From Niabella yanshanensis (GTDB lineage Bacteria; Bacteroidota; Bacteroidia; Chitinophagales; Chitinophagaceae), in NCBI RefSeq assembly GCF_034424215.1, contig NZ_CP139960.1, forward strand, positions 5,270,001-5,334,000: a DNA stretch of 64,000 nucleotides. The letters are read 5' to 3'. Both the position numbers and the translations under genes were made by a program. The first letter of the stretch is position 1; every line of letters begins with the position of its first letter. Under the pieces are notes generated by a model. The model was not told the DNA's origin and did no database searches. It saw only the letters and a program-made list of their open reading frames with translations. Shown piece by piece: positions 45,847-53,978 of the stretch.

Positions 45847-46632
45847 ATGTCGGACATACGAACCATAAATGTTACGCGCTATGTAACACCTTTACGTGAA
45901 GGAGGCTCTTTACCAGCGATAGCTGAAGGAGACGACGGCTTCTTATATGCCTTAAAATTCAGAGGCGCCGGTCAGGGAATAAAGGCGCTGGTTTCGGAAT
46001 TTATTGGAGGCGAAGTAGCAAGACTGCTGGGGCTAAAAGTTCCTGAGATAGTATTTGCATATCTGGATGAAGCCTTTGGCCGAACTGAGCCGGATGAAGA
46101 GATACAGGACCTTTTAAAAGCCAGCCAGGGATTAAACCTGGCCCTCCATTACCTGAGCGGCGCGATCACTTATGACCCTGCATTAAGCAAAACAGATCCT
46201 TTACTGGCCTCCAAAATAGTTTGGCTGGATGCCTTTTTAACGAATATGGATCGTACTGCCCGCAACACCAATATGCTGATCTGGAACCGGGAGCTTTGGC
46301 TGATTGACCATGGCGCCAGCCTGTATTTTCATCATAACTGGCAGAATTGGGAGACCCAGATGAAAAGTCCGTTCCCATTGATTAAGGACCATGTGTTACT
46401 GAAGGAAGCCGGTTTGCTGGCAGAAGCCGATCCAATATGCCGGGAACTATTAAATGAAACGGTGATTGATGAAATACTCGATGCATTGCCTGCTGAATGG
46501 CTGGCATATGAAGAAACAAACGGCATCGCCGAAATAACCAAAAAAGTGTACCGGGACTTTCTCAACTTCAGGTTACAGAATAGCGGGATATTTTTAAAAC
46601 AAGCCATTGATGCAAGAGCAGCAGTTATATGA
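45847..46632 (+). CDS. Short HipA-like kinase
   Basis: A 261-aa protein with the HipA-type kinase core and no N-terminal HipA domain (full HipA is about 440 aa). The nucleotide-binding beta region reads GFLYALKFRGAGQG, the catalytic loop is NMDRTARNTNM with D135, and the metal-binding Asp is D154 in LIDHGAS. HipA proteins phosphorylate protein targets such as aminoacyl-tRNA synthetases. No HipB-like antitoxin lies next to it; instead it overlaps a DUF3037 gene by 23 bp. The role, whether toxin, defence or regulatory kinase, is unknown. Confidence 0.82.
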   Translation: MSDIRTINVTRYVTPLREGGSLPAIAEGDDGFLYALKFRGAGQGIKALVSEFIGGEVARLLGLKVPEIVFAYLDEAFGRTEPDEEIQDLLKASQGLNLALHYLSGAITYDPALSKTDPLLASKIVWLDAFLTNMDRTARNTNMLIWNRELWLIDHGASLYFHHNWQNWETQMKSPFPLIKDHVLLKEAGLLAEADPICRELLNETVIDEILDALPAEWLAYEETNGIAEITKKVYRDFLNFRLQNSGIFLKQAIDARAAVI

Positions 46633-46996
46633 GTACGCGGTAATACGGGTGGTGCCACGCGTGGAGCGGGAGGAGTTTGTGAATGCAGGCATCATACTTT
46701 TTTGTAAAAAAACAAAATATGTAGATTGCCGGATCGCATTACCTGTAGAGAAGCTGCAGTGTTTCAGCCCCGACATTGACCTGGGTTTTATCCGCCAAAA
46801 TCTTGACGCTTTCGAAAAAGTTGCTTTGGGAGACCGGCTTAGCACTTCTCCAATTGCCCATCTGGATGCACCATCTCGTTTCAGATGGCTTACCGCCACC
46901 CGCAGCACAGTGATACAATGTTCGAAAGTTCATCCCGGGCTTACAGGCGATCTTGCCCTGGCAATGAAAAAATTATTGCACGAAATGGTGTTGTGA
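46610..46996 (+). CDS. DUF3037 family protein
   Basis: A 128-aa protein of the DUF3037 family, from the ATG at 46610 (MQEQQLYEYAVIRVVPRVER), preceded by an in-frame TTG. EFVNAGIILFCKKTKYVDCR and the C-terminal SPIAHLDAPSRFRWLTATRS are the conserved parts. The function of the family is unknown. It overlaps the HipA-like kinase gene by 23 bp, so translation is probably coupled; the same pairing is known in other bacteria. Its stop abuts the stop of the convergent UbiA gene with no base between them. Confidence 0.85.
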   Translation: MQEQQLYEYAVIRVVPRVEREEFVNAGIILFCKKTKYVDCRIALPVEKLQCFSPDIDLGFIRQNLDAFEKVALGDRLSTSPIAHLDAPSRFRWLTATRSTVIQCSKVHPGLTGDLALAMKKLLHEMVL

Positions 46997-48004
46997 TCAG
47001 GCTGTTTTCGTGCGGCGGCGTTTAAATAGAATCCTGTAAATATCTTTTAATATCATGATCCATCTCGCAGGGAATAGCAATAGCTGAGCGCATAAAACGA
47101 TCCAGGCATCCGGCTGGTTCATGGATGCATATAGTAGTAATGCAACAGGAAAAAACAGGTCAGTAAAATCTAACAATAATATCTGGTAGTTGAAATGATT
47201 ATGAAGGATGGGTATAGGCTGCTGTCTTAATACCGTATACCGGAGCAGCATTAAAACCAGGTACGCAATCATTGCTATATACACAAAAAGGTTATTCAGC
47301 ATAGATAACATCAGGGCCAGCGCTGCCAGCTCCGTTGCGAGAATGAACCATTCTATTTTTTTAAAATCACCCGGATTTCGCGCGGTGGCAAAAGTTTTAA
47401 TCCCTGATTTGATGTCATTTTCCCTGTCGGTAAACTGATGCCAAAGAATGCCCCTTAAGCCACCGCAGGTAGCCCATACAAATACGGCTGCCAGCCACGC
47501 GTAGTTAATGTTTTGTCCCGACAGACAACAAAGACTGCTTACCATCAAAAGGCTGATGAAAATATGTGCACCGCTGGCATCTGCCAATACACCCCATATC
47601 CCCCTGTTTTTAAGACGGAATGGCTGAAAGCTATACATGCTAAAGGCGATCCAGGGAATTGTATAAAAAATACAGGAAAGTATATCTGGATAGTAGAAGA
47701 AACAAATAAATGCGGCTCCCACAGACAGGCAGGCCAGGGGTAAAAGCCAACGCATGAACGGGGGAAGCGCTGCCATTTTATTGAATTTACCTGCTTTCTG
47801 GTCTACTTCAATATCGCTTACATCATTGATGATGCTTACGTAAATAGCGCCTACCACAACCGAAAGAAGGATGATTGCTATATAGCCATAATAGTCAAAA
47901 ATATTCCGGTTGCCTAACAAAAGTGTTGCATACCCTACAGCCAGGATAGGGGGGAGTTTATAGTCCCACCAATCATGCGATCTTACCAGTCGGGCGAGGT
48001 TCAT
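46997..48004 (-). CDS. UbiA family prenyltransferase
   Basis: An integral membrane prenyltransferase of 335 aa with about nine hydrophobic helices. The first metal/diphosphate motif is intact (N60-D61-V-S-D64-I-E-V-D68) and so is the second (DRENDIKSG). UbiA enzymes join a polyprenyl diphosphate to an aromatic or sugar-phosphate acceptor, or cyclise. It overlaps the GT2 gene by 4 nt (ATGA) and is the last gene of a leftward cluster with GT2, GT4, an ABC exporter and a cyclase-like protein, so a prenylated glycoconjugate is a reasonable guess. No ubiquinone or menaquinone genes are near. Confidence 0.88.
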   Translation of the reverse strand: MNLARLVRSHDWWDYKLPPILAVGYATLLLGNRNIFDYYGYIAIILLSVVVGAIYVSIINDVSDIEVDQKAGKFNKMAALPPFMRWLLPLACLSVGAAFICFFYYPDILSCIFYTIPWIAFSMYSFQPFRLKNRGIWGVLADASGAHIFISLLMVSSLCCLSGQNINYAWLAAVFVWATCGGLRGILWHQFTDRENDIKSGIKTFATARNPGDFKKIEWFILATELAALALMLSMLNNLFVYIAMIAYLVLMLLRYTVLRQQPIPILHNHFNYQILLLDFTDLFFPVALLLYASMNQPDAWIVLCAQLLLFPARWIMILKDIYRILFKRRRTKTA

Positions 48005-48984
48005 TGGCTTACTGCTTTTTGAGCTTTACTGTTTTTTTCTTCTTTTACCCGGTTAATTCCAAACATTATTACCTGCGGAATACTCCTGAAGGTTTGTATG
48101 GAGTCCAGGTACAAAGATTTTACCAGGAGCTTTGCAGTTTTAATAATGTTGAACTCTCGGATCAGGTGGTGTTTAGCTAACTCCACAAGGCTATATACAT
48201 GTTTGTTTCTCAATGCCTTATATTGGTTGCTATTCATGTGCGGTTTAAAATCACGCATCATCTTTTCCACGTCGGCAATATACAGGTGTTCCAGCACTTC
48301 CTTTCTTCTCCTGCCATCGTATACATTTGACTGACCCGCATATTTTTTCCATAATCTCTTCAGTGTAAATGCCGCTTTTCGTTCTCCTGAGTACAAAGCG
48401 GAGAGATACAGGTACCAGTCATCGCCGATCTTAATATCATTATTCCAGCCATTTTTAATCAAGTCATGTTTAATGACTGCCGAAGACGAGGGCGAGGGGC
48501 ATCCCTGTACATAGATAGTCCGGAGGTCATCGCTCGACAGATTAACCCAGTCATCTTTGAGCAGGTTAAAATAAGGTACAACAACAATGTCTGTTGACAG
48601 AAAATCCCGCACGCTTCCGTCCTGATCCTGCTGATCCCAGTTGGTAAATACAAAATCAAGTCCATCCCTCACAATTTTGTTCACGCACTCCTCCAAAAAA
48701 TTCGGATACCAGATATCGTCTGAATCCAGGGACGCGATCAGGTCGCCCTTTGCCTGTTTTAATCCGGCATTACGCGCACTGGCCTGTCCGCCGTTTTGTT
48801 TGTGAATGCGCGTGATAGTATCATATTTTTTTAATATGTCAGCGGTGTTATCCTTCGATCCGTCATCTACTACGATGATCTCTATATTTTTATAGCTCTG
48901 GTTAAGCACACTGTCAATGGCATTCGATACGGTACCACCACGATTATAGGTAGGTATAATAACCGATACTAGAGGTTGGGTCAT
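48001..48984 (-). CDS. Glycosyltransferase family 2
   Basis: An inverting GT-A glycosyltransferase of 327 aa. Visible are SVIIPTYNRGGTVSNAIDSV, the nucleotide-binding VVDDGSKDNT, the metal site in ASLDSDDIWYP, and a C-terminal helical region without membrane segments. It starts 1 nt after the GT4 stop and its last 4 nt overlap the UbiA start, so the three are translated together. The donor sugar cannot be told. Confidence 0.92.
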   Translation of the reverse strand: MTQPLVSVIIPTYNRGGTVSNAIDSVLNQSYKNIEIIVVDDGSKDNTADILKKYDTITRIHKQNGGQASARNAGLKQAKGDLIASLDSDDIWYPNFLEECVNKIVRDGLDFVFTNWDQQDQDGSVRDFLSTDIVVVPYFNLLKDDWVNLSSDDLRTIYVQGCPSPSSSAVIKHDLIKNGWNNDIKIGDDWYLYLSALYSGERKAAFTLKRLWKKYAGQSNVYDGRRRKEVLEHLYIADVEKMMRDFKPHMNSNQYKALRNKHVYSLVELAKHHLIREFNIIKTAKLLVKSLYLDSIQTFRSIPQVIMFGINRVKEEKNSKAQKAVSQ

Positions 48985-50148
48985 TTATTGAATCAGTTTA
49001 GAGACAGCATGTGCAAAAAGTGCTTCAGGACTTTCGGGTACATGCTGTGTAATATGAGTATGGGCGCTTTTTCCCATTATGTTCCAGTTGTGCCGCTCAT
49101 TCCATGCCTTTTCCATGGCGGAGGCGAAATTGTTCTCATTGGCTTCACCTATAAACCCGGTGACGCCTTCGTGTACGATTTCGGCGTGACCGCCTGCCGG
49201 AGTCACAATAACCGGTCTGCCAATTGCCATGGCCTCTATGGTCACCAGGGGCATTCCTTCGCTTCTCGATGGCAGAATTAAGGCATGGTGGGTTTCCCAG
49301 CACTTAATTATGTCAGATTGATAGGTCTGAAAGGATACATTTTCTACATTCAGCAGGGCGGCCATTTCTTTTAGGGCCAGCTCATCAGGACCTCCGCCAA
49401 TAAAGCTGATTTCTACCGGCCGGGATTTCCAAGGCTCTCTCGACAAAATACGTAATAAAATGTCCTGGCCTTTATCGATAATAAAAAAACGTCCAATACA
49501 GGCAAATTTATAACTCGTTTTTGATTCGGGGAAAGGAATTATGGAGCGTCTGAATTTTACCGGGTTCCAAACGATTGCTGCGTTGGTAAATCTTAGCCCG
49601 AATTGCTCTTCCGTAATGCGTTGATTATGCGCTGAGACAAAGAAGCATTGTACAGATTTTTTCCAGGCCTGGATCATGTAAGGTCTTTCGGGGTTATCAG
49701 GCCAGAAAAAATCTACTGCTTTGTGACTAATGATGGCGTAGGGGATCTGCTGCAGTAGACACTGATACGCGTAGCCCAGCCCGTCAAAATTGATAGCCTG
49801 GTTGATCAGCACCAGGTCCGGCTTATCTTTTCTAAGTAATGATCCTAAAGCTCCTGTATACTCATTATTATAATGAATAGGATTTTTATTACCGGACAGG
49901 TAATTTTGTACTCTCTTCCATATTTTTCCCGGTAGCCCGTTTAACTTCGGCTTGAAGTTTACAAGTGAGACGCCCTTATCGCGGATTTTTACAACTTCGG
50001 GATGGCTGAAGTTGAATTGCCGTTTGTATACGGAAACCCTGTATCCGAGTTTCAGCAACAACGGAGCAGATTGCGCCCATAGTTCCTCGCTGCCGCCCCA
50101 GTCATCGGTGCAACAGGTAATGAAAACAATATGTTTACTTTCAGCCAT
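48985..50148 (-). CDS. Glycosyltransferase family 4 (GT-B)
   Basis: A retaining GT-B enzyme of 387 aa. The donor-binding domain shows FACIGRFFIIDKGQDILLRI and the E-x7-E type motif LPSRSEGMPLVTIEAMAIG. The N-terminal domain starts HIVFITCCTDDWGGSEELWAQ. It lies 2 bp after the ABC exporter gene and directly before GT2. The pair could build a short glycan on a lipid or terpenoid acceptor. Confidence 0.92.
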   Translation of the reverse strand: MAESKHIVFITCCTDDWGGSEELWAQSAPLLLKLGYRVSVYKRQFNFSHPEVVKIRDKGVSLVNFKPKLNGLPGKIWKRVQNYLSGNKNPIHYNNEYTGALGSLLRKDKPDLVLINQAINFDGLGYAYQCLLQQIPYAIISHKAVDFFWPDNPERPYMIQAWKKSVQCFFVSAHNQRITEEQFGLRFTNAAIVWNPVKFRRSIIPFPESKTSYKFACIGRFFIIDKGQDILLRILSREPWKSRPVEISFIGGGPDELALKEMAALLNVENVSFQTYQSDIIKCWETHHALILPSRSEGMPLVTIEAMAIGRPVIVTPAGGHAEIVHEGVTGFIGEANENNFASAMEKAWNERHNWNIMGKSAHTHITQHVPESPEALFAHAVSKLIQ

Positions 50149-50150
50149 AT

Positions 50151-51965
50151 TTAATAATCAGCAGCCTCCGTTGTACTTTCTTTAAACAGATTGGCGTAGG
50201 CGCCATTCCTTTGCATCAATTGCTCATCAGTCCCCTCTTCTATGATTTGCCCCTGCGATAAAACATAGATGTAATCGGCATGCAGGATAGCAGAACGCCT
50301 ATGGCTGATGATCACCGCGCCACGGTTACCAATCCGCTCCCTGAACGTGCTGAACAGTTCTTTCTCAGAAACAGCGTCCAGCGCACTTGACGCTTCATCA
50401 AATATCAGGAACCGTGCGTCGGAATAAAAACACCTGGCCAGGGCCAGCTTTTGCCATTGGCCGATGCTGACTTCCCGTCCATCTTCAAAAGTTCGTCCCA
50501 TAGTAGTGTCGTAAGCATTGGGGAATGATTCAATGAACGAGGCTGCTCCTGATTTTGCAGCTGCATCCTTAGCCCGTGCCAGGTTAAAGGGGTCATTGAT
50601 ATTACCAAAGAAGATATTTTCACCCGCAGTAAAACTGTACTTATTAAAATCCTGGAAGACAATACCCAGCTGTTTCCGGTAGTGTTGGGGTTCAAACGCT
50701 CTGATATCCGTATCTCCCCATAGTATTTGCCCTTCAGTAGGATCATAAAGGCGGCATAATAGCTTGATCAGCGTGGATTTACCTGCACCATTTAAGCCAA
50801 CCAGCCCGATAATCTTACCCGAAGGAATGGTAAGGTTGATGCCTGATAGGGTTTCTTTTTCTGAATGGGGGTAGGTGAAGCGAACATTGTTTAGCCGAAT
50901 GCTCACGCTTTCATCAGAGGGTATACATTCCTGTTGAGCGTGCTGATCAAAATGATTTTGAAGCTCCAGCAGTTCAAAGGCACTATTAATATAAATACTG
51001 TTTTGGTAAACGACAGAAACACCCGCTGCTATGTGCTGAAGAAGGGTAAAAGCCTGCGGAAAAGCTACCAGGAACAGGGTTATATCACCTGTGCTGGTTT
51101 CGCCCGATACTGCTTTAAGTGCAATAAATCCAATGCAGAAAAAAATACCTATATAAGACAAGGCGGTAGTAAACACTTCCAGTTGCGTTCTTTTTAAACT
51201 CAATGACAGCTTTTCTTTAAGAAGGGTATAGCGTATATCGCTGAATTTTTGCCTGAGATAGCCGCCCAGTGAGTAGGTACGGATTTCTTTTGCTGCTGTA
51301 TCTGTAGTAATAAGGTTGCTGAAATAACCCGATTTTCGTTCCATAGACGTTTGAGCTATTCTAAGAATATTGAGTTTTCTCGAATATTTCAAACGGATCA
51401 GCAAAGTGGGTAAAACAAACAAAGTGATAATAGGTAACAGCAGCCAGTTAATCAGTAACAATACGGATGCCACTGCTGCCAGAGATAAAAAATTTTTTAC
51501 AATTTCGATCAAAGTAGTAATTAACAGGCCTGGCTTATCAGTCCCGGCTTCTAATGCGCGTTTGAGAACATTATAATAAGAAGGGCTTTCGTAAAAAGAA
51601 AGCTGAAGATCTACTGCTTTTTCATGCACCTTGTTATTAATGTACTCAGAAACCTTGGTGGAAAGTACTTCTATTGAGTAGGCGCTGAATGATCTTAGTA
51701 CGAAATAAAGAACCCCGGCCACCCCACTCAGTATTACAAAGCGGATAATTTCGGTTGGGGCTTCTGTCGAATGAAGTGTGGTTTTGGCCACTATATCAAT
51801 GAGCAGCTTCATAAGATATAGAGAAGCAAAAAACACCAATGTCTCCAGGACGATTAGGGTAAGCGAAATATACAGCCATCTGGGAGCAGCAGTTTTAACC
51901 AGGCTGATTATACGTGGCAGGTTTAAACTATGTTTAATATGAGAAATTTTTCGGCGAATAGACAT
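50151..51965 (-). CDS. ABC exporter, fused membrane and ATPase domains
   Basis: A 604-aa half-transporter: six membrane helices (about 25-325) and an ATPase domain (about 355-600). Walker A is VGLNGAGKST and Walker B FLIFDEASSALD. The signature motif is changed: VSIGQWQK stands where LSGGQ is usual, a form seen in some peptide and lipid exporters. It is packed against the GT4 gene and follows the cyclase-like gene by 79 bp. It probably flips or exports the product of this cluster across the inner membrane. Confidence 0.92.
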   Translation of the reverse strand: MSIRRKISHIKHSLNLPRIISLVKTAAPRWLYISLTLIVLETLVFFASLYLMKLLIDIVAKTTLHSTEAPTEIIRFVILSGVAGVLYFVLRSFSAYSIEVLSTKVSEYINNKVHEKAVDLQLSFYESPSYYNVLKRALEAGTDKPGLLITTLIEIVKNFLSLAAVASVLLLINWLLLPIITLFVLPTLLIRLKYSRKLNILRIAQTSMERKSGYFSNLITTDTAAKEIRTYSLGGYLRQKFSDIRYTLLKEKLSLSLKRTQLEVFTTALSYIGIFFCIGFIALKAVSGETSTGDITLFLVAFPQAFTLLQHIAAGVSVVYQNSIYINSAFELLELQNHFDQHAQQECIPSDESVSIRLNNVRFTYPHSEKETLSGINLTIPSGKIIGLVGLNGAGKSTLIKLLCRLYDPTEGQILWGDTDIRAFEPQHYRKQLGIVFQDFNKYSFTAGENIFFGNINDPFNLARAKDAAAKSGAASFIESFPNAYDTTMGRTFEDGREVSIGQWQKLALARCFYSDARFLIFDEASSALDAVSEKELFSTFRERIGNRGAVIISHRRSAILHADYIYVLSQGQIIEEGTDEQLMQRNGAYANLFKESTTEAADY

Positions 51966-52044
51966 AATATTATCTAATGAACCTTTGGATATTGGTTGGG
52001 GCTTACGTAATGAACAAATATAACATAAATGACTAAGCCGCGAC

Positions 52045-53115
52045 TTAATTTCTACCCTGAGAAGCCGATTGGCCCCTGTATAAATGCAGGGCTTCTATAC
52101 AATAAGCGGTGGTTGTTTCCTCACTACCCCAAACCAACTTTCTGGAAGGACCGGATACCAGTTCAAAACGTCTCCATTCACCGTTTTTTGACTGTCTGGA
52201 TAATAAGCGTTCCAGGTATTGTGTTACTTTTTCATCCTTTACGCCAAGTCGCAATAAAGAAGATATGCCAAGTGCCAGTTCTAAATCGCAGTTTTCAAAA
52301 ATGTCGCTTGCCTTTATAGCATTAAACAATTTAGTAATAAATAACTCTTTTATTGCCGTCATTTCAGGTATGTCCAGTTCAAACAGGCGTGACAAAAATG
52401 AATAATATACAATTTCATTTAAATACCACTTATCCGAGCCTTTCTCCCTGTTCTGCACCAGTACATCTCTTATGAACTTAACAGCCGGTTTGGTGATTTC
52501 ATTATAACCCAGGTAGCAAACAATGTTCGCATTCACAACAACATCTATATCATTGCGCCTGTGGTCGTTCATCGTCCAGAAAAGTATCGATTTAACCGGC
52601 AGTTTAAGTTCCCTGGCAATAAGACGCCAGAAGGTTCTGGAGTACTGCAAAAAATTACTATGAATGGTAAACCAGGTATAAAATAGTCCGTTTTTTGCGC
52701 GGTTTAAAAGAAGCATAGACGTATTATCTACCGGTAATGCATTTCTTTTCTTTAAGAATCCGGAAATAAGTACCGTGTCATCGGTATCCGGCGGTAACAG
52801 CTTAAAAAGCTGGTTCCATTTTGTATAATAACCCCAAACGCCACCCCGGAACATATTATAGGTTAAAAAATTGACCGATCTGGCTAGCATATTATTGACA
52901 TCTTCCCGGTGCTGCAGGGGGACCAGGCAGGAACCGATAACAGCTGTTATCCCTGTTATGCTGTCTGGTGCGCACCATTCCTGCATTTCCGGGTCTGGCG
53001 CCATATAGGCAATAAATTCTCCATTGTGTAATTGATGACGCGATAGATAATCAACAGCCCTGTCAATAGAGGCATCTATTTTTTCTGATAATGTTTGCTT
53101 GTCCAAGTTAGCCAT
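52045..53115 (-). CDS. Cyclase/prenyltransferase-like alpha-toroid protein with DTDD motif
   Basis: A 356-aa soluble protein built of helical repeats like the squalene-hopene and class II terpene cyclase toroids. It has PP-D110-T-D112-D113-T, matching the DxDD(T) acid motif of class II cyclases, and a QW-like repeat (SRQSKNGEWRRFE) near the C-terminus, with further repeat starts at the N-terminus (YLSRHQLHNGEFIAYM). It is about half the size of a standard class II cyclase, so it may form one barrel only. No signal peptide. Neighbours are ispE upstream and an ABC exporter, GT4, GT2 and UbiA downstream. Catalysis is not proven; a binding role is possible. Confidence 0.7.
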   Translation of the reverse strand: MANLDKQTLSEKIDASIDRAVDYLSRHQLHNGEFIAYMAPDPEMQEWCAPDSITGITAVIGSCLVPLQHREDVNNMLARSVNFLTYNMFRGGVWGYYTKWNQLFKLLPPDTDDTVLISGFLKKRNALPVDNTSMLLLNRAKNGLFYTWFTIHSNFLQYSRTFWRLIARELKLPVKSILFWTMNDHRRNDIDVVVNANIVCYLGYNEITKPAVKFIRDVLVQNREKGSDKWYLNEIVYYSFLSRLFELDIPEMTAIKELFITKLFNAIKASDIFENCDLELALGISSLLRLGVKDEKVTQYLERLLSRQSKNGEWRRFELVSGPSRKLVWGSEETTTAYCIEALHLYRGQSASQGRN

Positions 53116-53165
53116 AGTTTATTATGTAAAAAGATGAGCAGTTTGTGAATAAATATAAGTGCGTG

Positions 53166-53978
53166 TTAAAGGTTTATTTGTCTAATAAAATAATTTTCGG
53201 GAAAATTAAGGATAACGTTTTGACTTTTTTCGAATATCCCGTATACGGTACTACCACTACCGCTCATAAGCGCATAAACAGCACCTGTGTGGTATAATAA
53301 TTCCTTGATGTTTCTAATTTCGGTATATTCACTAAACACTGCTGCTTCAAAATCATTAAACACAAAACTTTTCCATTCCTGTACTGGTTTTACGATGCTT
53401 TTTTCAAGAGGAAGAAGAGGCGTTGCTGGTTGTAACCGGCTGAATGCCCAGGGAGTTGAAATATGGATGCCGGGGTTTACAATTACTATCCGGTAACCAG
53501 AAAGATCCAGGTGTGTTCCGGCAAATACTTCTCCGCGGCCTGTCGCTAACACCGGCCGGTTCAGAATAAAAAATGGGCAATCACTACCCAGTTGTAAGGC
53601 ATACTGCAATAACTGTTCTTCTGTCAACTGCAGCGAAAATTTTTGATTCAGCGCAATCAGGGTGTGGGCGCCATTGGCACTGCCGGCACCCATCCCTGCA
53701 CCTGCAGGAATATTTTTTAAAAGATAAAAATGAACGGAGGGCAGTTGAGGGAAATCTTTTTTAAGCAGGCTCCAGGCTTTTATGATGATGTTATCTTCCA
53801 GGCGCCCGGGGATGAGCTGACCTGTAACAGTTATGGCTGTTTCGGGCGCCTCGATAAGTTCTATTACATCATAAAGCGGTAAAGGGAAAAATACGGTTTC
53901 CAGGTTATGATAACCATCTGGTCTTTTACCGGTGATATACAGACCAATATTGATTTTGCAATTGGAAAATCGGATCAA
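53166..53978 (-). CDS. ispE: 4-diphosphocytidyl-2-C-methyl-D-erythritol kinase
   Basis: GHMP-family kinase of the non-mevalonate isoprenoid pathway, phosphorylating CDP-methylerythritol at its 2-hydroxyl. The 270-aa protein shows the substrate-binding start CKINIGLYITGKRPDGYHNLE, the ATP loop NIPAGAGMGAGSANGAHTL and the C-terminal LMSGSGSTVYGIF. Length is normal. It precedes the cyclase-like gene by 50 bp on the same strand and may share its transcript, which puts isoprenoid precursor supply next to an isoprenoid-like cluster. Otherwise it is housekeeping. Confidence 0.95.
   Translation of the reverse strand: MIRFSNCKINIGLYITGKRPDGYHNLETVFFPLPLYDVIELIEAPETAITVTGQLIPGRLEDNIIIKAWSLLKKDFPQLPSVHFYLLKNIPAGAGMGAGSANGAHTLIALNQKFSLQLTEEQLLQYALQLGSDCPFFILNRPVLATGRGEVFAGTHLDLSGYRIVIVNPGIHISTPWAFSRLQPATPLLPLEKSIVKPVQEWKSFVFNDFEAAVFSEYTEIRNIKELLYHTGAVYALMSGSGSTVYGIFEKSQNVILNFPENYFIRQINL

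Follow-up and report, generated by a model that had tools for sequence, protein, structure and literature searches.

Introduction

The drimenol synthase AsDMS, AstC and AacA are HAD-TCbeta synthases, in which a terpene cyclase (TC) beta domain is fused to an N-terminal HAD domain. In AstC, the D271A, D271N, D273N, N324A and Y361F variants lose the cyclised product and T274 is also essential (PMC13244436). In AsDMS, D331, D333 and Y427 are likewise essential (PMC12365925). Here we describe a locus in which a protein resembling these enzymes, the toroid protein TOR, is encoded beside an ABC exporter, two glycosyltransferases of families GT4 and GT2 and a UbiA-superfamily prenyltransferase. The locus lies in a window of 64,000 nucleotides from Niabella yanshanensis (RefSeq assembly GCF_034424215.1, contig NZ_CP139960.1, positions 5,270,001 to 5,334,000 of the forward strand). 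The window is the whole stretch of DNA analysed, and window coordinates below are counted from its first letter.

We propose, with a probability of about 0.64, that the five genes form a modular pathway that prenylates an acceptor, optionally cyclises the prenyl chain, adds sugars and exports the resulting terpenyl glycoconjugate. The proposal is based on the linkage of the genes, the fold match and catalytic-residue conservation of TOR, loci that lack TOR and UbiA-GT4 fusions in relatives. What each protein does, and in which order, we infer as follows, together with the length of the chain, its acceptor and the sugars. The prenyl chain that UbiA moves onto a membrane-associated acceptor would come from the prenyl diphosphate synthases of the host and is probably C15 or C20 in length. 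TOR, as a stand-alone class II cyclase, would carry out a tailoring step, with D112, held by N197 and Y231, protonating the far end of the chain to start ring formation. GT4 and GT2 would attach sugars, and the ABC exporter would carry the product over the inner membrane. A first-pass annotation of the sequence had proposed a six-gene cluster for an exported cyclised or prenylated glycolipid. Such a product remains the best reading and five of the genes are linked, but the sixth, ispE, is not a member.

Linkage of TOR to UbiA, GT4, GT2 and the ABC exporter recurs in other Bacteroidota

Six minus-strand open reading frames (ORFs) occupy positions 46997-53978 in the ORF listing of the window, and five of them make up the cassette. 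TOR (52045..53115) has 356 aa and no Pfam match, its top match in both sequence and fold being drimenol synthase. It is followed on the same strand by the ABC exporter (50151..51965), with fused membrane and ATPase domains and MsbA/HepA-like, and by GT4 (48985..50148) and GT2 (48001..48984). All three were assigned by Pfam and NCBIfam, the exporter with scores under the cut-offs of the listed models. UbiA (46997..48004), assigned by PF01040 and carrying both Asp motifs, ends the cassette. The same-strand arrangement in the first-pass annotation was borne out by the listing, with 2 nt between the ABC exporter and GT4, 0 nt between GT4 and GT2 and a 4-nt overlap of GT2 and UbiA. Spacing is wider upstream, at 79 nt between TOR and the ABC exporter and 50 nt between ispE and TOR. 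The motif TAnnTTTG, which we take to be the Bacteroidota -7 promoter element, occurs in the TOR-ABC gap (52015-52022). It was rejected as a candidate promoter, its 57 matches in the window not exceeding the 70.7 expected by chance.

TOR was found in 7/17 genomes of the genus, 6/294 of the family and 8/395 of the phylum. A profile scan of contigs gave 14 named TOR loci: three in Niabella, eight in Pedobacter, one in a Chitinophagaceae strain and two in metagenome-assembled genomes. The single TOR protein used as query against the same contigs found no relative. Pooling the TOR searches, merging duplicates and removing four weak matches gave 22 TOR-first genomes, which overlap the Pedobacter set described below; matches in G126, G476, G341 and G666 (E 2e-9 to 9e-5, within frames of 535-744 aa) were excluded as non-family. 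The stretches searched for partners were 7.7 to 21 kb long, and the E cut-offs were of our own choice (UbiA 1e-20, GT4 1e-60, GT2 1e-35, ABC 1e-80). The first-pass annotation had suggested looking for the toroid gene next to UbiA and glycosyltransferase genes across Bacteroidota. UbiA and GT4 were each present near TOR in 21 of the 22 genomes, GT2 in 19 and the ABC exporter in 18, and 18 genomes had all four. UbiA lay within about 10 kb of TOR in 21/22. Some frames are broken in G677, G679, G680 and G1113 (completeness 72-91%); a gene there was scored as present if fragments of it matched.

The remaining loci depart from this pattern in different ways. At L031 and L051 TOR stands with GT4 and UbiA only, at L032 it stands alone with the other partners absent, and the TOR cassette of L030 is without the usual ABC type. 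Inside the L030 cassette, at L030:10174-13339, lie a gene that joins acyltransferase and P450 domains and one that is sulfotransferase-like (24.6 bits against a cut-off of 27).

The five proteins show correlated pairwise distances. For TOR and UbiA r = 0.853 across 25 taxa, a value reached by 0 of 999 permutations, though shared ancestry could also produce it. Third codon positions differ most in the 15 pairs of TOR genes compared, and the TOR gene is therefore under constraint. In relatives at four loci, UbiA and GT4 form single-frame fusions of 753-767 aa (L145:3701-5962, L151:7014-9299, L154:6519-8780 and L155:6843-9146; that of L151 also by Pfam). Such fusions suggest that one and the same intermediate is prenylated and glycosylated.

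That the genes are chance neighbours, or belong to unrelated transcripts, is scarcely credible. Gene order does differ among relatives, and in 10/17 genomes of the genus no TOR was found, as such a view would have it, but the proximity of UbiA in nearly all TOR genomes, the correlated distances (which species relatedness could also give) and the UbiA-GT4 fusions all speak against it. The same genes are grouped in other genomes too, which is more than chance would give. The cassette is conserved but patchily distributed, with TOR tied genetically to UbiA, GT2, GT4 and the ABC exporter in other Bacteroidota.

TOR resembles class II terpene cyclases in fold and catalytic residues

TOR matched no Pfam family, and its only NCBIfam match was to SCO2321 at 18.5 of 300 bits. 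Against the PDB, a profile of 11 TOR sequences gave AsDMS at E = 1.8e-16, AstC at 8.8e-9 and squalene-hopene cyclase at 6.7e-4. An AlphaFold2 (AF2) model of TOR had a pLDDT of 79.7 and a pTM of 0.85, and was weak at residues 38-52 and 94-106, beside the acid motif. In a Foldseek search with this model, ranks 1-10 were all AsDMS chains (3.3e-10 to 1.2e-8, TM by query 0.60-0.64). Below them came 6ij1, two small squalene-hopene-type cyclases and, at rank 16, MstE (6sbd, 6sbg). The first-pass annotation had suggested comparing the predicted structure with squalene-hopene cyclase; small cyclases of that type were matched, and drimenol synthase ranks above them. The same annotation had called TOR half-size, which is not odd in itself, as there are precedents for class II cyclases of one domain, MstE among them.

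Catalytic residues were counted in 37 distinct TOR sequences, among which are L032, L038 (G677) and L037 (G680), whose C-terminus is shifted. D112, Y231, W148 and D189 were kept in 37, D110 in 36, and T114 and N197 in 35. The 356-aa protein does carry D110-T-D112-D113-T, which had been read as the acid motif of class II cyclases. D110 and D112 are conserved, but position 113 is D in 18 sequences, N in 12, S in 4, T in 2 and A in 1. A strict DxDD motif was rejected on these counts and, since D113 varies, the conserved core is DxDxT. In an alignment read by hand, D110, D112, N197 and Y231 correspond to AstC D271, D273, N324 and Y361, and D110, D112 and Y231 to AsDMS D331, D333 and Y427. Three distant TORs reached via UbiA keep D112 and Y231, and one of them (L142) has E in place of D110. 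Taken together, the fold match and the retained catalytic residues make it probable that TOR functions in the manner of class II terpene cyclases. Pfam found no HAD domain in its 356 aa, so TOR is not a HAD-TCbeta enzyme.

Several results on TOR weigh against the proposed pathway. The acid-motif segment alone aligns weakly (independent E 0.059 for AsDMS and 0.66 for AstC), most of the profile score coming from residues 185-345, and the window TOR matched no curated terpene-cyclase family in Pfam or NCBIfam. The essential T274 of AstC aligns with the variable position 113. Residues that bind diphosphate (PPi) in AsDMS are partly kept: the contacts Y373 and Y426 correspond to W148 (37/37) and W230 (33/37; Tyr in 3, Arg in 1), and R378 to R187, which is Arg in 28 and Lys in 4 of 37. 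AprG, a sugar enzyme in which this fold has a different chemistry, is a fold match at rank 22 and below (E about 6e-5). In addition, the TOR relative of L032 sits in an NHLP cluster for a ribosomally synthesised and post-translationally modified peptide (RiPP), and UbiA was not seen in the 12,000 of 38,775 bases read there.

The last two results would suit a TOR that is a non-terpene toroid, for example an AprG-like sugar-converting enzyme or a helper in glycan assembly, as would its position amid glycosyltransferase genes. We regard this as very unlikely. Drimane cyclases match TOR more strongly than AprG does in both sequence and fold, each of four AstC catalytic positions is retained by 35 or more of the 37 TORs, and TOR is linked to a prenyltransferase beside which a cyclase of another type is found at L105 (see below).

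Other TOR-like sequences were seen outside the cassette. At L032:1803-9830 (G502, contig C124) the TOR relative carries DLDDT, and its neighbours are a C39-peptidase ABC exporter, a radical SAM protein and several small leader peptides of NHLP-like type. The one leader peptide tested scored 52.5 over 50.9 with TIGR03793. L033:2199-4154 and L039:7709-9934 encode proteins (651 and 741 aa) whose C-terminal region is TOR-like. In the L033 protein this region is a squalene-hopene cyclase C-domain by Pfam, and a radical SAM gene is nearby.

Some relatives keep UbiA with a substitute for TOR or without one

We checked what accompanies UbiA in Pedobacter, where it was present in 30/145 genomes. The 30 loci held TOR in 21 cases, a methyltransferase in the TOR slot in two (L104 and L216, between the ABC exporter and GT4) and neither in six (L139, L209, L215, L217, L218 and L219), and one was unreadable (G1101, L221, 5,338 bases). 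Absence of TOR here refers to the stretch examined: L139 ends with its contig, and G370 alone was also covered by a whole-genome TOR search. Because some relatives have no TOR near UbiA, or a methyltransferase instead, TOR appears to be an optional tailoring step.

A cyclase of another type was found at L105, where a 224-aa Pyr4-like transmembrane terpene cyclase (TMTC; PF25129, 4.5e-20) directly follows GT2-UbiA. At the level of the phylum, the UbiA profile gave strong matches (E below 1e-50) in 6/395 genomes; at E 0.001 there were matches in 119/395, the remainder being at 3.6e-9 or weaker. Four of the six strong genomes have TOR, the other two being G370 and G460. A class search found this UbiA in 34/395 genomes at E 1e-20. 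Neighbourhoods were examined for 24 of these, 20 of them new, and of the new ones three contained a distant TOR (L140, L142 and L158) and four the UbiA-GT4 fusions given above.

These loci also supply evidence unfavourable to the pathway. The methyltransferase in the TOR slot might methylate a sugar, and the 12,281-base contig of L105, which also shows no TOR match, gave none to the ABC exporter or GT4. Other class-search loci resemble polysaccharide clusters, a judgement made by eye on their gene starts and a small number of Pfam matches, and for this reason the product of the distant UbiA loci may differ.

Methyltransferases were seen beside UbiA elsewhere too. At L147:9740-10513 a class I methyltransferase adjoins it on the same strand, and gene starts that look methyltransferase-like by eye lie beside it in L152, L153 and L157 and one gene away in L150. 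The L147 protein was rejected as a prenyl-diphosphate methyltransferase: a PDB search gave phosphoethanolamine and other small-molecule methyltransferases and no prenyl sign.

Prenyl transfer may precede cyclisation

Within the proposed pathway we slightly prefer transfer first and cyclisation later. Farnesyl diphosphate (FPP), once fully cyclised, is no longer an allylic donor, and UbiA persists in loci that lack TOR; both argue for this order. So does the membrane cyclase DmtA1, which acts after prenylation (PMC6173783).

The reverse order, in which TOR makes a bicyclic diphosphate from free geranylgeranyl diphosphate (or FPP) that UbiA then uses as donor, is possible but doubtful; as a variant in step order it falls within the odds of the pathway given above. 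It is favoured by the kinship of TOR to enzymes that act on free FPP, and the TC domains of AacA and AstC, taken on their own, yield cyclised diphosphates (PMC13244436). R187 aligns with the PPi-binding R378 of AsDMS. Moreover, Pfam found no HAD phosphatase among the five cassette proteins, and a TOR that does not carry the phosphatase domain of AsDMS would not remove the diphosphate. Set against this, a HAD gene lies near many Pedobacter cassettes, two PPi-contact tyrosines of AsDMS are Trp in TOR, and 8/30 Pedobacter loci keep UbiA with no TOR nearby. A drimenyl-type diphosphate is not allylic, so that a C15 chain would be unsuited to UbiA and a C20 chain suited.

UbiA and its possible acceptors

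UbiA scored 39.1 bits with PF01040 (cut-off 34.2), and no NCBIfam subfamily matched the window protein. Both metal motifs claimed for it are in place, as N60-D61-x2-D64-x3-D68 and D193-x3-D197. Across 45 sequences, broken frames included, D64 and D68 are kept in 43 (two gaps), D61 in 42 and D193 and D197 in 44 each. The top profile matches were to chlorophyll synthase (4e-5), and the AF2 model (pLDDT 88.4) matched AfUbiA best (6.4e-5), then digeranylgeranylglyceryl phosphate (DGGGP) synthase. The polyprenyl synthase family has three matches in the window genome, and prenyl donors should therefore exist in the host. The ABC exporter scored 273.5 of 602 bits with the MsbA model TIGR02203, short of its cut-off.

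UbiA might instead resemble decaprenyl-phosphate phosphoribosyltransferase (DPPR synthase), transferring a sugar phosphate onto a polyprenyl carrier for a surface polysaccharide, with TOR modifying the carrier and the ABC exporter flipping the carrier-linked glycan. The DPPR synthase 8j8j is indeed a weak profile match (E = 0.015) and DPPR synthase also matched in fold, the distant relatives lie among apparent polysaccharide genes, and Pedobacter cassettes often have suggestive neighbours. Of the 26 Pedobacter loci displayed, 14 have a second UbiA close to the cassette, which matches DPPR models at 55-60 bits, below their cut-offs. A DegT-type aminotransferase match occurs in 16 of these 26 loci, and FdtA, a Core-2-type glycosyltransferase and a TIGR04325 methyltransferase often accompany it. 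This alternative is nevertheless unlikely. UbiA has better matches elsewhere, in chlorophyll synthase by profile and in AfUbiA and DGGGP synthase by fold, and it is the second Pedobacter UbiA that matches DPPR models, the window UbiA matching none. By eye, no polysaccharide locus was seen among the window ORFs at 42-60 kb, where none was recognised as a DegT aminotransferase, FdtA, Core-2 glycosyltransferase or TIGR04325 methyltransferase. The prenylating pathway remains the preferred reading of the cassette, and within it the Pedobacter aminotransferase and the genes that often accompany it hint at an amino-deoxysugar.

The second, DPPR-like UbiA was seen at L104:15199-18376 and in Pedobacter counterparts together with a HAD hydrolase and a GMC-type oxidoreductase.

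As a tentative extension, Bacteroidota might hold an undescribed UbiA lineage that prenylates a sugar or glycan carrier, the chain being tailored by an interchangeable class II cyclase, a Pyr4-type cyclase or perhaps a methyltransferase. Such a lineage, including both this cassette and the UbiA-GT4 fusions, would yield terpene-capped or terpene-anchored surface glycans.

ispE and other flanking genes

Immediately upstream of TOR lies ispE (53166..53978, minus strand), a housekeeping gene for a kinase of the methylerythritol phosphate (MEP) pathway (named by Pfam and by TIGR00154, 175.1 bits, cut-off 138.7). The first-pass annotation had counted it in the cluster, and we rejected it. An ispE match was present in 17/17 genus genomes, against 7/17 for TOR. 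At the empty site L106 (G022), where the cassette is absent, ispE and pnp are grouped with a bifunctional-nuclease gene and rpsO, and the 65 nt between ispE and pnp contain no ORF. In G189 and G277 the cassette (L008 and L007) is at a different place from ispE (L111 and L112). Its distribution, the empty site and these separate sites together indicate that ispE is a mere neighbour.

On the other side, UbiA adjoins a DUF3037 gene (46607..46996, plus strand), which is paired with a HipA_2-like kinase gene (45847..46632, plus strand), both assigned by Pfam. In the window these two genes and the cassette sit between ispE and pnp, the latter named by eye. The same arrangement, with pnp again identified by eye, is found in G679, G680, G677 and G685, several frames being broken in the first three. 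Relatives of DUF3037 lie near the cassette in L007 and L008 (by eye) and in L036, L037 and L038 (by BLAST with the L007 copy). HipA_2-like relatives were found by eye or BLAST at the same loci and at L035, where no open DUF3037 frame was seen (G679). By eye, the pair also accompanies the cassette at its other chromosomal site in G189 and G277, and because it flanks the cassette there it may travel with it.

Comparison with known systems

If the proposed pathway is correct, soil Bacteroidota should export a class of terpenyl glycoconjugates. Genus mates with, without or with a substituted cyclase would provide a natural experiment, as they should differ in the prenyl part of the product.

The literature matches listed, judged by titles and abstract openings, include no description of such a cassette, which agrees with the first-pass claim that the glycolipid is undescribed for this group; most subscription journals lie outside the scope of that search, and the absence is weakly supported. 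The description of UbiA beside Lipocone proteins (PMC12419801) concerns a neighbourhood that differs from the cassette.

The HAD-TCbeta synthases share with TOR the TC beta-domain fold, the DxD acid pair and the Asn/Tyr network. They differ in their fused HAD domain, which TOR lacks, and in TOR the residue after DxD is variable and two PPi-contact tyrosines are replaced by Trp. The setting also differs, as TOR sits with UbiA, glycosyltransferases and an exporter. MstE, the monodomain merosterolic acid synthase (6sbb, 6sbd, 6sbg), is like TOR a single-domain class II cyclase of similar length, but with a lower fold score (E about 1e-5) and 15-16% identity. Its bound substrate is geranylgeranyl dihydroxybenzoate by the title of 6sbg, indicating that it acts after prenylation.

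Two further systems combine prenyl transfer and cyclisation with other components. In the drimentine pathway, DmtC1 and DmtA1 carry out prenyl transfer and then proton-initiated cyclisation, the latter by an XiaE-like membrane cyclase sharing acidic residues with Pyr4 (PMC6173783). A Pyr4-like TMTC likewise stands beside UbiA in L105. The drimentine pathway differs in the folds of both cyclase and prenyltransferase, in its cyclodipeptide acceptor and in its locus of cyclase, cyclodipeptide synthase and prenyltransferase. Pyr4-like cyclase clusters of the zig type likewise place a cyclase and a UbiA-like prenyltransferase in one cluster; these are mostly from Actinomycetota and include P450s, and the terms 'glycosyltransferase' and 'Bacteroid' have no match in the main text (PMC13307353).

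The exporters MsbA, HepA and PglK have the same fused half-transporter layout as the cassette ABC and are among its top NCBIfam matches, but the cassette protein scores far below their equivalog cut-offs. Each enzyme type is known, whereas the combination of a stand-alone class II cyclase with UbiA, two glycosyltransferases and an exporter looks new.

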